In this document: positions 2,987 to 10,957 of the stretch, piece after piece
Layout of the letters: each line of letters opens with the position of its first letter
Numbering within the stretch: the stretch's first letter is position 1
From: Janthinobacterium silvisoli
Lineage (GTDB): Bacteria > Pseudomonadota > Gammaproteobacteria > Burkholderiales > Burkholderiaceae_D
Length of the DNA: 64,000 nucleotides
Assembly: GCF_014200725.1 (NCBI RefSeq)
Contig: NZ_JACHCL010000001.1
Coordinates: 1,116,001 to 1,180,000, forward strand
Direction: 5' to 3'
The notes under the pieces: generated by a model
Databases searched by the model: none
What the model saw: the letters and a program-made list of their open reading frames with translations, nothing else
Told to the model about the DNA's origin: nothing
Made by a program: the position numbers and the translations under genes

Positions 2987-3595
2987 ATGAAAAAGACTCT
3001 GATTGTTGCCGCTTGTTCAACCTTGCTGGCCGCCTGCGGCGGTGGCGGGAGCGACTCCTCCTCCCCGGTCAATAACACCCCCGCCCTTACCCCCCTGTCC
3101 GTTTACGCTGGCACCTGGCAATCGCCTTGCGACGATTACGAAATCGATACCCTGACCCTCTCGAACAAGGCAGATGGAAGCCTGGAAGTCACGATCAAGG
3201 CTGAGCACTTCCAGTCGGCGAGCTGCGCCGGCGCACCTATCGCCACGCAAACCACGACGACCAATCCTTCGATCAGCTATCTCAGCACGGCAGACACAGC
3301 TGTGCAGGCTGGCATCGGCAAACCGCCCACGACCACCCGCATCGACAAAGTCAATATCAATATCCCGCCACATAACGTCGTCGTCACCGGTCCTGGCGTT
3401 CAGCGTGTGGTCGAAAGCGGCCAGGCAAAGTGGTGCTTCAACGTGAATAGCACTTCCCGTACCTGTATCGATGATCCAGGCACAACGACTGCACAGGCAA
3501 GTACCGGCGGCATGTACATCAGCGGCAACACGCTGTATCTGCTCTCGCCGACGGGCCCAACCTACACGGTAGACGAGTTCTACACGCGCAAGTAA
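2987..3595 (+). CDS. Putative lipoprotein, tandem copy 1
   Basis: A 202-residue exported protein with a clear lipobox: MKKTLIVAACSTLLAAC, Cys17 as the lipidation site, followed by a Gly/Ser-rich tether (GGGGSDSSS) and probable outer-membrane anchoring. The mature part begins with a YAGTWQSPCDDYE segment and later has an NVNSTSRTCID segment; conserved cysteines could form disulfides. No enzyme motif is recognisable. The next gene (3764-4378) is a paralogue with the same layout (SWQADCDDHE, C-I-D/Y-D-E/PGT). The promoter and leader are duplicated too, so this is a tandem gene duplication, each copy with its own promoter. Function unknown. Confidence 0.85.
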   Translation: MKKTLIVAACSTLLAACGGGGSDSSSPVNNTPALTPLSVYAGTWQSPCDDYEIDTLTLSNKADGSLEVTIKAEHFQSASCAGAPIATQTTTTNPSISYLSTADTAVQAGIGKPPTTTRIDKVNINIPPHNVVVTGPGVQRVVESGQAKWCFNVNSTSRTCIDDPGTTTAQASTGGMYISGNTLYLLSPTGPTYTVDEFYTRK

Positions 3596-3763: not shown

Positions 3764-4378
3764 ATGCAAAAAAACTGGGCGATATTACTTGCAACAAGCG
3801 CTGCATTGCTGGCTGGCTGCGGCGGAGGCGGTAGTAATAATAGTGATTCCGTACAGCCGGCCGGCCAAGCATTGGCTGGCTATGTAGGATCATGGCAAGC
3901 CGACTGCGACGACCACGAACGCGAGAGCGCCGTCATTACCTTATCGCCATCGGGCAACGGTTCGATCGATATTGCCACCACCAGCAATTACTACAGCGGC
4001 CGCGATTGCTCCGGCGCGCTGCTGGCAACACAAACGATCAGCGCAAAAATATCCGCCAGCCCGAATGGCACCGTCGATACCAGCGTCAAGCTGTCGGCAA
4101 ACACAGCAGCGTCTACCATTACCGTCAACAAGATCAACTCCACGCTGCCCCAGTATCAGCTGTCGGTGACGGGCCCCGGCGTCAAATACGTCACCATCGC
4201 CAACCAGCAGCAATGGTGCATCGACTTCGGCAACGGCTCAAGCACATGCATCTATGATGAAGGTACACAAAAAGCCCAGACGAATACGGGTGGACTGTAC
4301 TTGCGTGGCAATGAAATGTTTGTACTGGGCACAACATCGACTGGTTTTGCATTCGACACGCGCTACGTCCGGCAATAA
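3764..4378 (+). CDS. Putative lipoprotein, tandem copy 2
   Basis: A 204-residue paralogue of the preceding gene. The signal peptide MQKNWAILLATSAALLAGC gives Cys19 as the lipidation site, followed by GGGGSNNSDS. Shared features with copy 1 are the Y-x-G-x-W-Q-x-x-C-D-D motif after the tether, a V-T-G-P-G-V segment (LSVTGPGVKYV here, VVTGPGVQRVV in copy 1), a tryptophan-cysteine pair (Q-W-C-I-D), and a C-terminal GG-L/M-Y-L/I-x-G-N segment. The start is supported by GGGAG six bases upstream. Sequence divergence is substantial, so the duplication is not recent. Function unknown; likely periplasm-facing envelope protein. Confidence 0.85.
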   Translation: MQKNWAILLATSAALLAGCGGGGSNNSDSVQPAGQALAGYVGSWQADCDDHERESAVITLSPSGNGSIDIATTSNYYSGRDCSGALLATQTISAKISASPNGTVDTSVKLSANTAASTITVNKINSTLPQYQLSVTGPGVKYVTIANQQQWCIDFGNGSSTCIYDEGTQKAQTNTGGLYLRGNEMFVLGTTSTGFAFDTRYVRQ

Positions 4379-4650: not shown

Positions 4651-5733
4651 ATGTTCACACGCATCTCAGCATTGTGTATCGCCGCCACCCTGAGCGCCCT
4701 GATCGGAGCCCAGGCCAGCGCATCGCCGTCTTACTCGGCAAGAGGCCTGTCCTGGGACTATGGGATAGAAAGCAATCTCAGCGGCATTAATCAGCTGGCA
4801 CACACCATCGGCACCAGCTATGGCAGCGGCATCATGCCTGCCGCCACCAACTGGGGCGCCATCGCCGGTAGCATGGGCACGAATAACGAATATTTAAGCT
4901 GGGGCACGGGCTTGAACGACGCCGGTCTCGCTTCCGGCTACACTCTGGCCTATGTCGGCAGCTACAACTACACCGTCGCCATGGTCGGCAAGAAGTTGAT
5001 GTATGCAGACGCCAGCATCGAGAGCAACGCCTACGGCATCAATAATCACGGCGTGGCGGTGGGTTATGCCAAAGCCTTTACCACCGGCAACCCAAAATTC
5101 GATATGGGCAAACCCAATCACGCCACCGTATGGACGAATCTGACGGCGACCGACATCCACCCGGTGGGCGCCACCAACAGCTATGCGCGCAGTATCAACG
5201 ATGCGGGCCAGATCGCCGGCGAAGTCGATGGCGTCATCACGCGCTGGGACAATGGCACGGCCAGCTACCTGGCTGCCGGCAAGGCGGCGGGCATCAATAG
5301 CCTGGGCGCCGTCGCCGGTACCAGCAATGGCAACGTGATGGTCTGGGATAGCCTGGGCGCACACAACCTGGGTGCGGGCACGGCAGGCGCCATCAACGCG
5401 CTGGGCCAGGTGGTGGGCAGCGCGAATGGGCGCGCGACCCTGTGGAGCGATGGACTGGTCTACGACCTGAACAGTTTCCTCAGCGCCGCCGTGCTCAACG
5501 CCGGCTGGCTGCTGTATGAAGCCACCGGCATCAACGACGCGGGCTATATCGCCGCCAATGGCTACAACAGCCTGCTCGGCATGCGCCAGGGCTATTTGCT
5601 GTCGCCAATCTCGCTGCTGGCGCCCGTGCCGGAAGCGCAAACCTGGGCCATGCTGCTGGCGGGGCTGTGCCTGGTCGGCATGACCACGCGCCGGCGCAAG
5701 ATCGCTGCGCATCAAAGGCCTCTGATGAGTTAG
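4651..5733 (+). CDS. PEP-CTERM sorted HAF-repeat protein
   Basis: A 360-residue secreted protein: N-terminal signal peptide (cleavage after ...IGAQASA), at least six HAF-type repeats of the form GIN-x-x-G-x-V-x-G (GINNHGVAVGYA, SINDAGQIAGEV, GINSLGAVAGTS, AINALGQVVGSA, GINDAGYIAANG). The C-terminal PEP-CTERM signal is VPEAQTWAMLLAGLCLVG followed by TTRRRK. PEP-CTERM proteins are processed by exosortase/EpsH systems and associate with the exopolysaccharide matrix; no exosortase is in this window. The ATG has a good AGGGGAAA ribosome-binding site. A Fur-box-like site lies just upstream. The repeat region probably forms a beta-propeller-like fold (family inference). Confidence 0.9.
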   Translation: MFTRISALCIAATLSALIGAQASASPSYSARGLSWDYGIESNLSGINQLAHTIGTSYGSGIMPAATNWGAIAGSMGTNNEYLSWGTGLNDAGLASGYTLAYVGSYNYTVAMVGKKLMYADASIESNAYGINNHGVAVGYAKAFTTGNPKFDMGKPNHATVWTNLTATDIHPVGATNSYARSINDAGQIAGEVDGVITRWDNGTASYLAAGKAAGINSLGAVAGTSNGNVMVWDSLGAHNLGAGTAGAINALGQVVGSANGRATLWSDGLVYDLNSFLSAAVLNAGWLLYEATGINDAGYIAANGYNSLLGMRQGYLLSPISLLAPVPEAQTWAMLLAGLCLVGMTTRRRKIAAHQRPLMS

Positions 5734-5797
5734 TGTGCAAGATCGAACATACATTGCAAAAATTGAAAGCTAGACTGTCTAAAAACAGGAGCTTGCA

Positions 5798-6823
5798 ATG
5801 TTTGTTACTGACTCAATCGTATTGGCTATCACCAGCTTTAACTCGGAAATCCTGCAAGCCTTGCCACCCATGGAAGGCTTGCGGTATCTGCTCGATGCTG
5901 GCCTCGGCACGCTGCCCCGGCCCGGACATGGCGCCACCTTGCAACGCTGGCAGGCGCTGGCGGCCGTCGCTGCTGTCGACCTGAGCCTGCTCAAATTGTA
6001 TGAAGCCCATACCGATGCGCTGGCCATCCTGGCCGAACTCGATAGCGCAGGCCCCGGCGCGCCGGCTGGCAGCAGTTGGGGCGTCTGGTGCGCGGAAATG
6101 CCGGGCACGCGGCTCAGGCTGCGCAAGGCGCAGGATGGACATTACCTGTTGGATGGACGCAAAGCCTGGTGTTCGGGTGCCAGCGGGCTCACCCACGCGC
6201 TTGTCAGTTGCTGGAATGAGCAAGACCAGGCTTGCCTGGCCAGCGTCGTATTGACGCAAGCAGGTGTACACGTCACCGACGAAGGCTGGCAAGCAGTCGG
6301 CATGGCAGCCTGCGCCAGCGTCGACGTGGAATTTACGGGCGCACACGCTTTCCCCATAGGCCAGCCCGGCGCCTATCTGGCACGGCCAGGCTTCTGGCAT
6401 GGCGGAGCCGGTATCGCAGCCGCCTGGTATGGCGCCGCCAGCGCGGTCGCCAGCCATCTGCATGCGCGCGCCCAGCGTGCGGCACCCGACGCCATGCGCC
6501 TGGCGCAACTGGGACAGATCGATTGCACGCTGCGCGCCAGCGCTGCCCTGCTGCGCGAGGGTGCGGCCGAGATCGATCTGCATCCGCAGCGTGATGCGAT
6601 GGAACTGGCGCTGCGCCTGCGCCTGGTGGTGGAAGACGCCGCCACGCTGGTACTACAGCTAGCGACACGTGCACTGGGCGCCGGCCCCTTGTGCCGCGAT
6701 GCCCGATTCGCGCGCCTGGCAGCTGACCTGCCTGTATTCCTGCGCCAAAGCCATGCCGAGCGCGACCAGGCCAGCCTGGGCGGCATCATCGCTGGTGCCC
6801 AAGACCATCCCTGGTCACTCTGA
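5798..6823 (+). CDS. Acyl-CoA dehydrogenase-fold protein (cluster gene 1)
   Basis: A 341-residue cytosolic protein with the acyl-CoA dehydrogenase layout: helical N-domain, middle beta domain (GVWCAEMPGTRLRL, YLLDGRKAWCSGASG, VDVEFTGAHAFPIG) and C-terminal four-helix domain (RDARFARLAADLPVFLRQ). It is shorter than typical members (~380 aa), and I cannot find the usual GG-x-GY-x-x-E segment carrying the catalytic glutamate; the corresponding place reads RALGAGPLCRDARF. It may be a divergent dehydrogenase or a flavin-dependent enzyme of the same fold. AGGAG precedes the ATG. The next three genes follow with 1-nt spacing and two ATGA overlaps, so it is the first gene of a four-gene operon with deacetylase, methyltransferase and glycosyltransferase. 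Confidence 0.85.
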   Translation: MFVTDSIVLAITSFNSEILQALPPMEGLRYLLDAGLGTLPRPGHGATLQRWQALAAVAAVDLSLLKLYEAHTDALAILAELDSAGPGAPAGSSWGVWCAEMPGTRLRLRKAQDGHYLLDGRKAWCSGASGLTHALVSCWNEQDQACLASVVLTQAGVHVTDEGWQAVGMAACASVDVEFTGAHAFPIGQPGAYLARPGFWHGGAGIAAAWYGAASAVASHLHARAQRAAPDAMRLAQLGQIDCTLRASAALLREGAAEIDLHPQRDAMELALRLRLVVEDAATLVLQLATRALGAGPLCRDARFARLAADLPVFLRQSHAERDQASLGGIIAGAQDHPWSL

Positions 6824-6824
6824 T

Positions 6825-7595
6825 ATGCACATCCCATTCCAGCCGCAAGAACGCCGCATCGAAGGCGTGGGCACCACCGACCAGCAGTGGCAAGCATGGC
6901 CGGGGCTAGCGCTCATCCCCACGATCACCGCGCATGCACTGGCGCCGCCAGGCAGGCGGGTGGTCATCGTCGCACCGCATCCCGATGATGAAGTCCTCGC
7001 CTGCGGCGGTTTGCTGCAATTGCTGGTGGCGCAAGGTAATTATATGGTGCTCGTTGCCGTCACCGACGGCGATGCCAGCCACCCCGGATCGACATTATGG
7101 CCGCCAGAACGCTTGCGCCGCATGCGCCCGCTGGAGTCGGCGCAATCCCTTGCGGCACTGGGCGTGGCATTCAACAATTGCGTGCGCATGCGCCTGCCGG
7201 ACGGCGGCGTGACAGGGCAGCTCACGCGCTTGCGCACCCGCCTGGCGGAAATGCTGCATCCTGGCGACATCGTACTGACCACCTGGCGTCTCGATGGCCA
7301 TCCAGACCATGAAGCCTGCGGCCTGGCTTGCGCTTTGGCCACCGCCGACAGCGGCGCCAGCTTGGTAGAAATGCCGGTCTGGACCTGGCACTGGGCCATC
7401 CCGGGCGATATACAAGTGCCGTGGCAGCGCGCACACCGCCTGCTGCTTCCCGACGCGGTGCTACGGCGCAAGCGCACGGCCCTTCACTGCTTTGCCAGCC
7501 AGATGCAGGCTGACACATCGACGGGACAGCCGCCCATCGTTGCCCCCCATGCGCTAGAGCGCCTGCTACATCCTTATGAGGTCTATTTTCTATGA
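6825..7595 (+). CDS. PIG-L/LmbE family deacetylase (cluster gene 2)
   Basis: A 256-residue zinc-dependent N-deacetylase of the PIG-L/LmbE superfamily. The metal-binding signature PHPDDE occurs near residue 53 and the second motif GHPDHEA near residue 160, giving the expected His-Asp-Asp-...-His ligand set. Family members remove acetyl groups from GlcNAc-containing substrates (GlcNAc-PI, GlcNAc-inositol, bacillithiol precursors). ATG 6825 lies one base after the stop of the previous gene, which suggests translational coupling; an upstream in-frame ATG at 6669 falls wholly inside the dehydrogenase gene and is unlikely. The C-terminus ends in LLHPYEVYFL. Likely acts on the sugar product of the GT2 gene at 8233. 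Confidence 0.92.
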   Translation: MHIPFQPQERRIEGVGTTDQQWQAWPGLALIPTITAHALAPPGRRVVIVAPHPDDEVLACGGLLQLLVAQGNYMVLVAVTDGDASHPGSTLWPPERLRRMRPLESAQSLAALGVAFNNCVRMRLPDGGVTGQLTRLRTRLAEMLHPGDIVLTTWRLDGHPDHEACGLACALATADSGASLVEMPVWTWHWAIPGDIQVPWQRAHRLLLPDAVLRRKRTALHCFASQMQADTSTGQPPIVAPHALERLLHPYEVYFL

Positions 7596-8236
7596 ACCCG
7601 TCTATCAACATGGATGAACAGCGCCGTGCTTATTTTGCGCGGTTGTACCACGACAGCGCCGACCCTTGGCAAGTTCGCCAACGCTGGTACGAGGAGCGCA
7701 AGCGCGCCCTGCTGCTGGCCTGCCTGCCGCAGCAACACTACCGTAACGCCTATGAGCCAGGTTGCGGCAATGGCGAATTGACCGCCGCGCTGGCGCAGCG
7801 CTGCGAACGCATGCTGGCGGCCGACATGTCGGAGCAAGCGCTGCAACTGGCGCAACGACGGCTGGCAGATGCCGGCCTGGGCGACAAGGTTCATTTTGAG
7901 CAGCATCGCTTGCCACAGGATTGGCCGCGCCAGGGCTTGGGTATAGAAAAATTCGACCTGATCGTGATCAGCGAGATCGCCTACTATCTGTCATCGGAAG
8001 AACTGGCGCAGGTGGCAGAGCAATGCGCCGCCAGCTTGGCTCACGGCGGCAGCATCGTGCTGTGCCACTGGCGAGCGCCATTTGTGCAACGGATGCAATC
8101 GACCGTATGCGTGCACGCCGCTTTTCAAAATATCGCCACCTTGCACCAGTTATTGCACCACGAAGAAGCGGATTTTTTGCTGGGCGTCTGGTCCAGCGAT
8201 GCGCGCTCGGTGGCGCAGCGCGAAGGTTTCGCATGA
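7592..8236 (+). CDS. NodS-like SAM-dependent methyltransferase (cluster gene 3)
   Basis: A 214-residue class I methyltransferase. The N-terminal YFARLYHDSADPWQVRQRWYE resembles NodS-type proteins (S-D-P-W-x-x-x-x-x-x-Y-E), followed by the SAM-binding motif YEPGCGNGELT (about residues 51-61), the acidic motif II (AADMSEQAL) and FDLIVISEIAYYLS as motif IV/post-IV. NodS methylates the free amino group of deacetylated chito-oligosaccharides; with a PIG-L deacetylase immediately upstream, methylation of a newly exposed sugar amine is a plausible role (inference). It overlaps the preceding and following genes by four bases (ATGA) on each side, indicating translational coupling. Confidence 0.9.
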   Translation: MNPSINMDEQRRAYFARLYHDSADPWQVRQRWYEERKRALLLACLPQQHYRNAYEPGCGNGELTAALAQRCERMLAADMSEQALQLAQRRLADAGLGDKVHFEQHRLPQDWPRQGLGIEKFDLIVISEIAYYLSSEELAQVAEQCAASLAHGGSIVLCHWRAPFVQRMQSTVCVHAAFQNIATLHQLLHHEEADFLLGVWSSDARSVAQREGFA

Positions 8237-8922
8237 TAGGCGTCGTCATCCCAGCGCACAATGAAGAGGAGTATCTGGGTGCTTGCCTGGACGCCTTGCG
8301 TGCCGCCGCTACCTGCCCCCAGTTAGGCGGCGAAGTAGTCCACATCGTCATCGTACTCGACGCCTGCAGCGACCACTCGCAGCGCATCGTGATGTCGCAC
8401 GCCATGCACACTGACCTGCGCTGGCGCCTGGACTGGATCGCTGTCGAGGACCGTAACGTGGGAGCAGCCCGCGCCGCTGGCGCTGCACTACTACTGGAAC
8501 GCGGTGCACGCTGGCTCGCTTTCACCGATGCCGACACGCGCGTCTCGGCCGCCTGGCTCAGCACCCAACTGAGCCTGGATGCAGATGCCGTCTGCGGCTC
8601 GGTAGCCGTCGACGACTGGTCACCGCACCAGCAGCACGTCTTGGCCCTGCGCGAACACTTTGCCCGCACGTATAACGACGCCGACGGCCATCACCACATT
8701 CACGGTACCAACCTGGGCGTGCGTGCCAGCGCCTACGTGCGCGCCGGTGGTTTCGCACCGCTCGCCTGCAGCGAAGATGTGGCGCTGGTCGACGCGCTGG
8801 AGGCAAGCGGTGCGCACATCGTCTGGAGCGCAGCGCCCCGTGTCAACACCAGCGCCCGTCGCAATGCCAAAGCCAGAGGCGGCTTTGGCGACACCTTGTT
8901 GCAGATGGTGGAAAAGATGTAA
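8233..8922 (+). CDS. Glycosyltransferase family 2 (cluster gene 4)
   Basis: A 229-residue GT-A fold glycosyltransferase. It opens with MIGVVIPAHNEEEYLGACL (nucleotide-binding strand), has the metal-binding FTDADTRV motif near residue 98, a GTNLGVRASAYVRAGGF acceptor-loop segment and an SEDVALVDAL segment carrying the ED catalytic-base position. No membrane segment is visible, so it is probably cytosolic or peripheral. ATG 8233 overlaps the methyltransferase stop (ATGA); an in-frame extension further upstream would run through the methyltransferase and is rejected. It is the last gene of the four-gene cluster and faces the convergent S9 peptidase gene 22 bases away. Confidence 0.9.
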   Translation: MIGVVIPAHNEEEYLGACLDALRAAATCPQLGGEVVHIVIVLDACSDHSQRIVMSHAMHTDLRWRLDWIAVEDRNVGAARAAGAALLLERGARWLAFTDADTRVSAAWLSTQLSLDADAVCGSVAVDDWSPHQQHVLALREHFARTYNDADGHHHIHGTNLGVRASAYVRAGGFAPLACSEDVALVDALEASGAHIVWSAAPRVNTSARRNAKARGGFGDTLLQMVEKM

Positions 8923-8944
8923 ATGCCAGCGCCGCCCCTGCCTG

Positions 8945-10957
8945 TCAGCGTATCGCTTCCTGCAAGCCCGGCGCAAATTCGGCGCCGTGCTTGACCTGCG
9001 CGGTGGACGCCTTGATGGTGCCGCCTATCGCTTCGGCGCGGCCAGCCAGGCATTTGCCGAGGAAGTTTTCTGCCACCGCATTGAAGGCGATGTTGTTCAC
9101 GGGACGCGCAAAACCATGGCCTTCATCGGGGAACAGAACGTAGGTGACGGGGATATTTTTCGCCGCCATTTCAGCGACGATCTGGTCCGACTCGCGCACG
9201 TTCACGCGCGGGTCATTGGCGCCCTGGCCGATCAGCAAGGGCCGCTGGATATTGGCGGCAGAATTCAGCGGCGAACGTTCCTTCAACATTGCCCGGCCTT
9301 CTTCCGTGGTGGGGTCGCCCATGCGCTTGTAAAACTGCTGCTTGATCGATTCCCAGTACGGCGGTATGGTTTCGAGCAAGGTAAACAGGTTCGATGGACC
9401 GACGATGTCGACGCCGCAGGCAAACGTGGTCGGCGTGAACGCCATGCCGGCCAGGGTTGCGTAGCCGCCATACGAGCCGCCCATGATGGCGACCTTGTCA
9501 GCCGTGGTCACGCCGCTCTTGACGGCCCATTGCACGGCGTCGAGCAAGTCGTCGTGCATCTTGCGGCCCCACTGCAAATCGCCGGCCGAAATGAATTGTT
9601 TACCAAAGCCCGTCGACCCGCGGTAGTTCACCGACAGCACGGCATAACCACGGTTGGCCAGCCACTGGTGCGTGCTGTTGTAGCCGTAGCCGTCGCGCGC
9701 CCACGGGCCACCATGCACCAGCAGCACCAGCGGCACCGGTTTGCTGGCGTGCCCGCTTGCGTCAGCCTGCGACGCTTGCGGCAAGGTAAGGTAGGACACC
9801 AGGGTCAGGCCATCGCGCGCCTTGATCTCTTGCGGATACATGGGCACCAGCGGCGCGCCTTCCAGCTCGGGCCGCGTCACATATAACTGCGTCAGGTGTT
9901 TGGCCTTGCGCTCGTACAGCCAGGCAGATGGCGGCGCAGTCACGCTATCGACCGCCACCAGCCATTTATCGTCGGCATCCGTGCGCGACACCACGCTGAA
10001 CTGCCCCTTGGTATTCTTCTTCAGGAATTCCAGATCGCCTTTCACGTCATTCGACAGCGGCACGTATTCCTGCTGCAGATAATTGACGCTATACGCCTGC
10101 ACGCGGCCCGTGCGCTGGTCGTACAGTGCGTTCGCAATATCGGCGCGCGCATCTTCGGCCACCACGGTAGTCTTGCCACTGGCCACGTCCTGCGCCAGCA
10201 GGGCCGAGGTATTACGGCCGCGCGAATCGGTCCAGTACAAGGTCTTGCCATCGGTGGTGAACGTCAGCGGCGCGGTGGTTTGCGAATCGTCCAGGCCGAT
10301 GTCGGCCAGCGGCGTGCTCTCGACCTTGCCGCCTTTGACACGGAAATAGGTAGCGCCGCCATCGCTGCGTGGTTTGCTCGCCAGGCGCAGGTTCAACTGT
10401 TCATCGGCCAGATAGCCGCCGTAACCGTCATTCTGCTGCACCAGGGTCAGCTTGCCGCTGGCCAGGTCCAGGCTATACACATCATGCCAGCGCGGATCGC
10501 GGTTATTGATGCCGATCAAAATGCGGTCCTTGACCTTGCTGCTGATCTGCACGATCTGCACGCGGGTCTTTTCAAACGGCGTGTAATTGATCTGCTTGCC
10601 GCTGACCACGTTCACGCCATACAGCAAGAAGTTTTCATCGCCGCCCTTGTCCTGGATAAACAGCAAGGTCTTCGAATCAGGCGACCAGAAGCTGCCCCGT
10701 ATCGGCCGCACTTTTTCATCCGTCAGCGCACGCGCCTTCGACAGATCGCTGGCCGGCGCCACCCACACATTGAGCACCCCATCGCGCGGCGCGATCCAGG
10801 ACAGCCACTTGCCATCCGGGCTGATCCTGCCGCCGGACTTGCTGGGATTACCAAAAATCTTCGCCCGCTCGATCAGCGGAACATCGTTGGCAGGAGATTG
10901 CGCGTAGGCCGGCAGGACGCTGGCGAACAAGAGTGCAGGCAGGGCATAACGTAGCAT
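8945..10957 (-). CDS. S9 family prolyl oligopeptidase-like peptidase, exported
   Basis: A 670-residue serine peptidase with an N-terminal signal peptide (MLRYALPALLFASVLPAYA), a ~380-residue beta-propeller region and a C-terminal alpha/beta-hydrolase domain. The catalytic Ser lies in GGSYGGY (about Ser495), the Asp in GANDPRVNVRESDQ, and the His in PDEGHGF. S9 enzymes cleave short peptides after Pro or other residues; export suggests periplasmic peptide scavenging. The start at 10957 is preceded by GAGGTG at good spacing; longer frames extending to 11032 would add a non-signal stretch. Single gene, convergent with the GT2 gene. Confidence 0.93.
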   Translation of the reverse strand: MLRYALPALLFASVLPAYAQSPANDVPLIERAKIFGNPSKSGGRISPDGKWLSWIAPRDGVLNVWVAPASDLSKARALTDEKVRPIRGSFWSPDSKTLLFIQDKGGDENFLLYGVNVVSGKQINYTPFEKTRVQIVQISSKVKDRILIGINNRDPRWHDVYSLDLASGKLTLVQQNDGYGGYLADEQLNLRLASKPRSDGGATYFRVKGGKVESTPLADIGLDDSQTTAPLTFTTDGKTLYWTDSRGRNTSALLAQDVASGKTTVVAEDARADIANALYDQRTGRVQAYSVNYLQQEYVPLSNDVKGDLEFLKKNTKGQFSVVSRTDADDKWLVAVDSVTAPPSAWLYERKAKHLTQLYVTRPELEGAPLVPMYPQEIKARDGLTLVSYLTLPQASQADASGHASKPVPLVLLVHGGPWARDGYGYNSTHQWLANRGYAVLSVNYRGSTGFGKQFISAGDLQWGRKMHDDLLDAVQWAVKSGVTTADKVAIMGGSYGGYATLAGMAFTPTTFACGVDIVGPSNLFTLLETIPPYWESIKQQFYKRMGDPTTEEGRAMLKERSPLNSAANIQRPLLIGQGANDPRVNVRESDQIVAEMAAKNIPVTYVLFPDEGHGFARPVNNIAFNAVAENFLGKCLAGRAEAIGGTIKASTAQVKHGAEFAPGLQEAIR

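Follow-up and report, generated by a model that had tools for sequence, protein, structure and literature searches.

Gene Organization of the Locus

The window analyzed here is a 64,000-nucleotide (nt) stretch of the Janthinobacterium silvisoli genome (assembly GCF_014200725.1, contig NZ_JACHCL010000001.1, forward-strand positions 1,116,001 to 1,180,000). Its positions 5798-8922 are filled by four genes on the + strand which, judged from their sequences, almost certainly form one pathway. The first gene (5798-6823) encodes a flavoprotein of 341 amino acids (aa) with the acyl-CoA dehydrogenase (ACAD) fold, assigned by its fold and its sequence relatives. It is followed by a PIG-L de-N-acetylase (6825-7595, 256 aa; PF02585), a NodS-like S-adenosylmethionine-dependent methyltransferase (7592-8236, 214 aa; PF05401), and a family 2 glycosyltransferase (GT2) with a GT-A fold (8233-8922, 229 aa; PF00535). 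On the bases, the TGA stop codon of the ACAD-like gene (6821-6823) is separated by a gap of 1 nt from the ATG of the PIG-L gene at 6825, and ATGA overlaps join the PIG-L and methyltransferase genes at 7592-7595 and the methyltransferase and GT2 genes at 8233-8236. The four genes, the 1-nt spacing, and the two ATGA overlaps given in an earlier description made from the letters alone (the sequence-only reading) are all confirmed. The list of open reading frames (ORFs) starts the PIG-L and GT2 frames earlier, at the alternative starts 6669 and 7921.

Co-Conservation of the Four Genes

Co-occurrence beyond close relatives, whose absence would have refuted the sequence-only reading, is evident in more than one phylum. 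In a sample of 97 genomes from the window genome's own family, 15, including that genome, hold the PIG-L at E <= 1e-20, and all 15 loci carry all four genes, with the ACAD-like gene of L012 cut at a contig end. A tblastn search of plasmids with the PIG-L met 78 records. Eight were inspected, picked by hand for spread, and in 8/8 the three partners lie near the PIG-L gene by tblastn or by annotation (the ACAD-like gene of L021 by annotation only); the GT2 of the Pandoraea vervacti plasmid (L016) reads in two frames. The wider set of 88 loci consists of the best 80 of at least 483 profile-scan relatives together with the eight plasmid loci, is biased to close matches, and carries 42 genus labels from Pseudomonadota, Actinomycetota, and one cyanobacterium. 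In 72 of the 88 loci, the complete set falls within 6 kb. Since the eight plasmid loci supplied rows of the profiles and match by construction, the count after their removal, 64 of 80, is given beside it. Among the incomplete loci, eight lack GT2 only, one lacks the methyltransferase, and one lacks the ACAD-like gene at a contig end.

Because the 88-locus set is biased to close matches, separate searches for each family were run in one sample of 299 genomes from the window's phylum, with a GT2 threshold of >130 bits. The ACAD-like gene was found in 23 genomes, of which 22 also hold the PIG-L, 22 the methyltransferase, 21 the GT2, and 20 all four, where chance would give 3.15, 2.38, and 1.69 genomes for the three partners (hypergeometric p = 4e-21, 4e-25, and 6e-29, respectively). 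By coordinates, the ACAD-like gene is adjoined by the methyltransferase gene in 22/23 genomes and by the PIG-L gene in 19/23; G350, which gave no PIG-L match in the search, has a divergent PIG-L beside the cluster (37.1 bits against a Pfam cut-off of 28.2). The converse is looser. The PIG-L (E <= 1e-20) occurs in 41 genomes, 19 of them without the ACAD-like gene and mostly with weak PIG-L matches, and the methyltransferase occurs in 31, of which the nine without the ACAD-like gene are genomes of NodS and of the large proteins described below.

The set is rearranged in several loci. GT2 comes first in the Rhodococcus, Mycobacterium, and Variovorax loci and lies on the opposite strand in Nostoc, Komagataeibacter, and two Pseudomonas loci, and the ACAD-like gene is last in Legionella lytica. 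It is also retained when split: in G124 and G247 the PIG-L gene is separated, by site or by contig, from the ACAD-methyltransferase pair of the same genome, and in G344 and G332 the GT2 gene is located away from the rest. In Phycicoccus (L101), PIG-L and methyltransferase form one 463-aa frame without a stop, and no other ORF of the first 133 loci shows this fusion; the codon-usage gene caller, run unseeded, missed this fused gene, which was then read directly, and the GT2 of L141. When pairwise distances over 69 loci are compared between the four proteins, the correlations are 0.67-0.86, to which shared species history contributes. The rearranged orders, the retention after splitting, the fusion, and the correlated distances together argue for a functional link and not only a positional one. 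Each of the four families is common on its own, which would suit functionally unrelated genes that became neighbors by chance; against such an origin stand the counts in the 88 loci and 299 genomes and the persistence of the set in genomes with a split operon, and we consider it extremely improbable. No constant fifth gene accompanies the cluster: the largest other family occurs in 15 of the 88 loci, where recurring neighbors are annotated in part only.

The plasmid-borne sets L016-L021 come from Acinetobacter, Pandoraea, Legionella lytica, Komagataeibacter, Sulfitobacter, and Kitasatospora; the Pandoraea plasmid is typed as conjugative, that of Acinetobacter as mobilizable, and the rest as non-mobilizable.

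The PIG-L Deacetylase

The second protein belongs to the PIG-L/LmbE family (PF02585, 94 bits against a cut-off of 28.2) and is the only PIG-L match in the window genome at E <= 0.001. The PHPDDE and GHPDHE motifs named in the sequence-only reading are present, and H52, D54, D55, H159, D161, and H162 are invariant in 14/14 aligned members. From its sequence, the enzyme probably deacetylates an amino sugar. The best NCBIfam equivalog is BshB1, with 53 bits, and LnmX is among the solved-structure matches; both would fit a thiol or an antibiotic-like small molecule as the product, with the PIG-L acting as in bacillithiol, mycothiol, and natural-product pathways. However, the BshB1 score falls far below its cut-off of 182.5, and the partly annotated neighbors include no constant fifth gene to add an amino acid, so that we regard such a product as very unlikely.

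A second, diverged PIG-L gene lies downstream of the Pseudomonas cluster (L028:12042-12878), with similar genes in L031, L035, L040, L053, and L065. The lone PIG-L genes of Frankia L083 and L097 stand in a different shared neighborhood (gene families c137-c143) and perhaps belong to another pathway.

The GT2 Glycosyltransferase

The fourth protein is a member of glycosyltransferase family 2 (PF00535, 56.3 bits against a cut-off of 23.3), and its D99-A100-D101 and E181-D182 are invariant in 42/42 members. The sequence-only reading had drawn its comparison with NodC-type GT2 enzymes. A NodC type is not supported: the protein has 229 aa and no long hydrophobic stretch, and NodC is absent from its 10 NCBIfam matches at E <= 0.1, where a real NodC scores 756.3. 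The equivalog of MftF, the mycofactocin glycosyltransferase, was also not reached (45.5 against 280). Its fold matches are many GT-A enzymes with differing donors, and an assignment of the substrate from the fold was dropped, since neither donor nor acceptor follows from such matches.

Envelope glycan synthesis often employs GT2 and PIG-L enzymes, and polymer or wall enzymes make up many of the fold matches of the GT, as would be expected if the four enzymes decorated a cell-envelope polymer and the product were a surface glycan or a lipid-anchored sugar. Hydropathy argues in the other direction, since none of the four window proteins, GT2 included, has a membrane segment (best 19-residue mean of 1.49, against 2.16 for a NodC). 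The lack of a constant fifth gene beside the cluster, among neighbors annotated in part, likewise tells against an envelope product, which we find distinctly unlikely.

The NodS-Like Methyltransferase

The third protein matches the Pfam NodS family (PF05401) with 47.9 bits against a cut-off of 24 but stays far below the NodS equivalog NF041650, with 57.6 against 300, where three true NodS controls score 341.3, 351.8, and 343.0. A DPW near the N-terminus and E128..Y131 are common to it and true NodS. The best solved relative is 4isc (1.3e-40), and the second is the NodS structure 3ofj (1.5e-8). On these sequence relationships, N-methylation by this enzyme is fairly likely.

In the methyltransferase tree, NodS groups with six large fusion proteins of probable rhizobia (99/98), and the next grouping, of 16 rows (96/96), adds four distant methyltransferases of the cluster together with the Nostoc, Sulfitobacter, and Komagataeibacter enzymes. 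The tree has no outgroup and gives no direction between NodS arising from the cluster and the reverse. Seven distant genomes carried the working label 'alpha' in it, of which L149, L150, and L144 were placed apart from the other four. In some distant genomes, an extra glycosyltransferase-like gene (283-296 aa, PF10111/PF02709) adjoins the cluster methyltransferase gene at L144:13829-14716, L152:4837-5685, and L153:8089-8937.

The ACAD-Fold Flavoprotein

The sequence-only reading had assigned the first protein to the acyl-CoA dehydrogenase fold. The fold stands, with a predicted local distance difference test (pLDDT) score of 94.4 for the structure model and a best VIA-align Z of 34.0. Membership of the family is not shown: in Pfam, only the middle domain PF02770 was matched, with 28.3 bits under a cut-off of 33.3, and neither the N- nor the C-terminal acyl-CoA dehydrogenase domain appears at E <= 0.1. 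Among 42 flavoprotein relatives, PF02770 is matched in 41 at E <= 0.01, and no C-terminal domain other than PF00441 is matched in any.

DnmZ is the top phmmer match (1e-6), and Foldseek, by E-value, places DnmZ, TdsC, DszC, and KijD3 first, in that order, at 18-20% identity. DnmZ and KijD3 are N-oxygenases that oxidize the nitrogen of amino sugars, and DszC and TdsC are S-oxygenases. With a 42-member flavoprotein profile, DszC and TdsC are the best solved relatives, most dehydrogenases rank later, and KijD3 is among the 13 matches at E <= 1e-5. DnmZ and KijD3 lie outside the best 50 VIA-align matches listed, from which we draw no conclusion. In NCBIfam, the flavoprotein reaches neither the SfnB equivalog (37.5 against 430.9) nor that of DszC (28.1 against 850).

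The residues C125, S126, and H319 are invariant in 42/42 members. The catalytic Glu was compared by profile alignment with ACAD-family proteins of the window's own genome, at 19% identity. The Glu of the YEGT motif in one of these (L154) faces H319, and the alternative dehydrogenase Glu site corresponds to G202/W200, without an acid in the flavoprotein. C125-S126 aligns with FCSG of DszC, and S126 stands opposite DszC residue 163 by a count made by hand; this Ser matters in DszC. Overall, the sequence comparisons favor, by a modest margin of confidence, a flavin monooxygenase over an acyl-CoA dehydrogenase, and N-oxidation would be a guess that we hold only tentatively. Of the acyl or other group whose oxidation was proposed in the sequence-only reading, an acyl group is the less favored target.

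Genomic Context and Stress Genes

In Pseudomonas arsenicoxydans (L028), the cluster is preceded by an alpha-amylase-family gene, a 4-alpha-glucanotransferase gene, a second alpha-amylase-family gene, a DUF2934 gene, and a gene with carbohydrate-binding module 48 and amylase domains, a run that we take to be treZ, malQ, treY, DUF2934, and a glgX-like gene, with treZ, treY, and glgX presumed from gene order. After the cluster come the second PIG-L gene and then glgB and a trehalose-synthase/maltokinase-type gene. L032 and L040 have the families of the upstream run in front of the cluster as well. Six of the eight plasmid records are annotated, and in three of these six, trehalose genes or a catalase lie near the cluster: the 8 kb shown for Acinetobacter johnsonii include otsA/otsB and a catalase, Legionella lytica has a trehalose-phosphatase and a glycoside hydrolase family 65 enzyme, and Sulfitobacter has a catalase. 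The Pandoraea, Kitasatospora, and Komagataeibacter records show neither trehalose genes nor a catalase near the cluster.

Three of the 23 genomes with the ACAD-like gene have a large catalase no more than 10 kb from the cluster, against 0.18 expected (p = 7e-4). At the same distance, Ku was found in one (G239) and an alpha-amylase-family gene in at least three (G381, G332, and G302, two of which share a genus; p = 0.03 with genes taken as independent); the proximity of Ku and alpha-amylase is suggestive at best. In colistin-dependent mutants of Acinetobacter baumannii, ACICU_02432-02435 are down 31-62 fold, with drops of 27-50 fold for otsA, 12-35 fold for otsB, and 22-31 fold for catalase (PMC5660220). 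The context in a subset of genomes and this one published transcriptome lead us to lean toward a stress-linked pathway.

A sigmaS-like -10 element, GCTAGACTGT, lies at 5769-5778, upstream of the first gene, and the window genome encodes RpoS (421.8 bits against a cut-off of 378.7). The promoter comparison, which left out actinobacterial and cyanobacterial loci as well as any gene with a gap of <70 bases, gave a mean -10 score of 10.09 for 34 cluster first genes and of 10.02 for 470 other genes. Control by sigmaS was dropped as a candidate, since the first genes of the relatives score no better than other genes.

Proposed Pathway

We propose a cytosolic four-enzyme pathway leading to a small amino-sugar conjugate with a role in surviving stress, a proposal to which we give an even chance. 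GT2 would add an N-acetylglucosamine (GlcNAc)-type sugar to an acceptor, the PIG-L enzyme would remove the acetyl group from the sugar conjugate, and the NodS-like enzyme would methylate the freed amine. The ACAD-fold flavoprotein, acting as a flavin monooxygenase, would then oxidize the product, most likely at or beside the nitrogen. What the sequences themselves show are the family assignments, the conserved motifs of the active sites, and the co-conservation; the chemistry, the step order, and the sugar substrate are those that the families would suggest.

Several observations weigh against this proposal. The PIG-L gene stands without any partner in 6 of the 88 loci, and GT2 is not nearby in 8. 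A large catalase is absent within 10 kb in 20 of the 23 genomes, and at the same distance from its cluster the window genome shows no match to catalase, Ku, or the alpha-amylase family. The sigmaS-like -10 element is not enriched before the relatives' first genes (1/34 against 46/470 in the background at the cut-off, p = 0.25). For the flavoprotein, DnmZ, first by phmmer and Foldseek, falls outside the 13 profile matches at E <= 1e-5; the dehydrogenase C-terminal domain PF00441 is weakly matched in 5/42 members at E <= 0.01; and TdsC and DszC are level with dehydrogenases in VIA-align (Z of 32.3-34.0 among the best 50 matches listed), so that the fold alone is not decisive.

The last two of these points, together with the ACAD fold itself, would suit a flavoprotein with genuine dehydrogenase activity, which would desaturate an acyl chain or acyl-CoA for attachment to the deacetylated amine, giving a glycolipid or an acylated amino sugar. 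Such a route would call for a gene to join the acyl chain, and the partly annotated neighbors offer no constant fifth gene (15/88 at most). Moreover, the dehydrogenase Glu positions hold H319 and G202/W200 in the alignment, and the closest profile matches of the flavoprotein are monooxygenases. We judge the acyl route unlikely.

A bolder version of the amino-sugar proposal, which we regard as doubtful, is that a mobile four-gene unit found in at least three phyla makes an N-methylated, N-oxidized amino-sugar glycoside as a stress metabolite, and that the NodS of nodulation descends from one branch of the unit's methyltransferase.

Since it is small, well defined, and probably soluble and occurs in bacteria that can be cultured, the unit lends itself to a direct search for its product. 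Were it a stress metabolite, this product would take its place beside trehalose and similar compounds, in bacteria of soil and plants as well as in Acinetobacter. The pathway would also give a NodS-type enzyme a setting outside nodulation and would account for a 'dehydrogenase' whose name is probably wrong in many genomes.

Flanking Genes

The left neighbor of the cluster encodes a PEP-CTERM protein, and the right neighbor, on the opposite strand, an S9 peptidase. A scan of 5600-9100 for sigma-70 promoters and terminators found none. Further upstream, two ORFs of ~200 aa at 2987-3595 and 3764-4378 are probably paralogues, because both have lipoprotein-like starts (LLAACGGGG and LLAGCGGGG) and a common TGG[ML]Y stretch near the end.

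Comparison with Known Systems

The enzymes are of known kinds, and searches of the open-access literature, with subscription journals outside their scope, showed no description of the product of their combination; the sequence-only reading likewise knew of none. In A. baumannii, ACICU_02432-02435 encode a glycosyltransferase, a methyltransferase, an LmbE protein, and an ACAD-related protein (PMC5660220), and the four products and their order are the same as in the window cluster when compared by printed product names. The genes next to blsA in A. baumannii likewise have the four products in the order of the window cluster (PMC6240043, PMC9020721), and, as far as the available text of the Acinetobacter papers goes, the set is treated as neighbors or regulated genes only. 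The PIG-L and ACAD homologues in A. baumannii records have 38.2 and 38.8% identity.

The first steps of mycothiol and bacillithiol synthesis (MshA/MshB and BshA/BshB) are a glycosyl transfer and then a PIG-L deacetylation. The same two steps are proposed for the window cluster, but MshA and BshA belong to glycosyltransferase family 4 whereas the window enzyme is a GT2, N-methylation and a flavoprotein are added, and the BshB1 and MshB scores are far below the cut-offs. Compared with DnmZ/KijD3 and DszC/TdsC, which are its best Foldseek matches, with DszC/TdsC also its best profile matches, the flavoprotein is shorter (341 aa against ~400), has 18-20% identity, and reaches no NCBIfam equivalog cut-off.

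In the case of Nod factors, nodB-nodC-nodS likewise bring together, as one operon, a GT2, an N-deacetylase, and a methyltransferase of the NodS family; in the one true NodS locus tested, NodB and NodC adjoin NodS, both over their cut-offs. The window cluster differs in having a PIG-L in place of the NodB fold, a small soluble GT2 in place of NodC, and an extra flavoprotein. Its deacetylase matches PF02585 only, not the NodB polysaccharide-deacetylase fold, whereas a real NodB matches PF01522. A search for the NodA acyltransferase gave 0 matches in the window genome (G000), while the control matched nowhere either. The Nod-factor-like logic of the sequence-only reading is sound as an analogy, with the same kind of set also found fused elsewhere, and not as membership of a Nod-factor system.

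The fused form is that of the large proteins (741-1001 aa) L164-L169, from the probable rhizobia G131, G167, G147, G219, G369, and G348. All six contain a NodS-like region, the cluster GT2 profile matches four of them, and Pfam places GT2, NodS, and polysaccharide deacetylase in one chain in L164 and L165, the two scanned. The three activities are the same as in the window cluster, there in a single chain, with a NodB-fold deacetylase and no flavoprotein domain in the two scanned. The combination of GT2, deacetylase, and NodS-type methyltransferase thus occurs in three architectures that between them use two unrelated folds for the deacetylase, which is the best support for serial action of these enzymes on an amino sugar.

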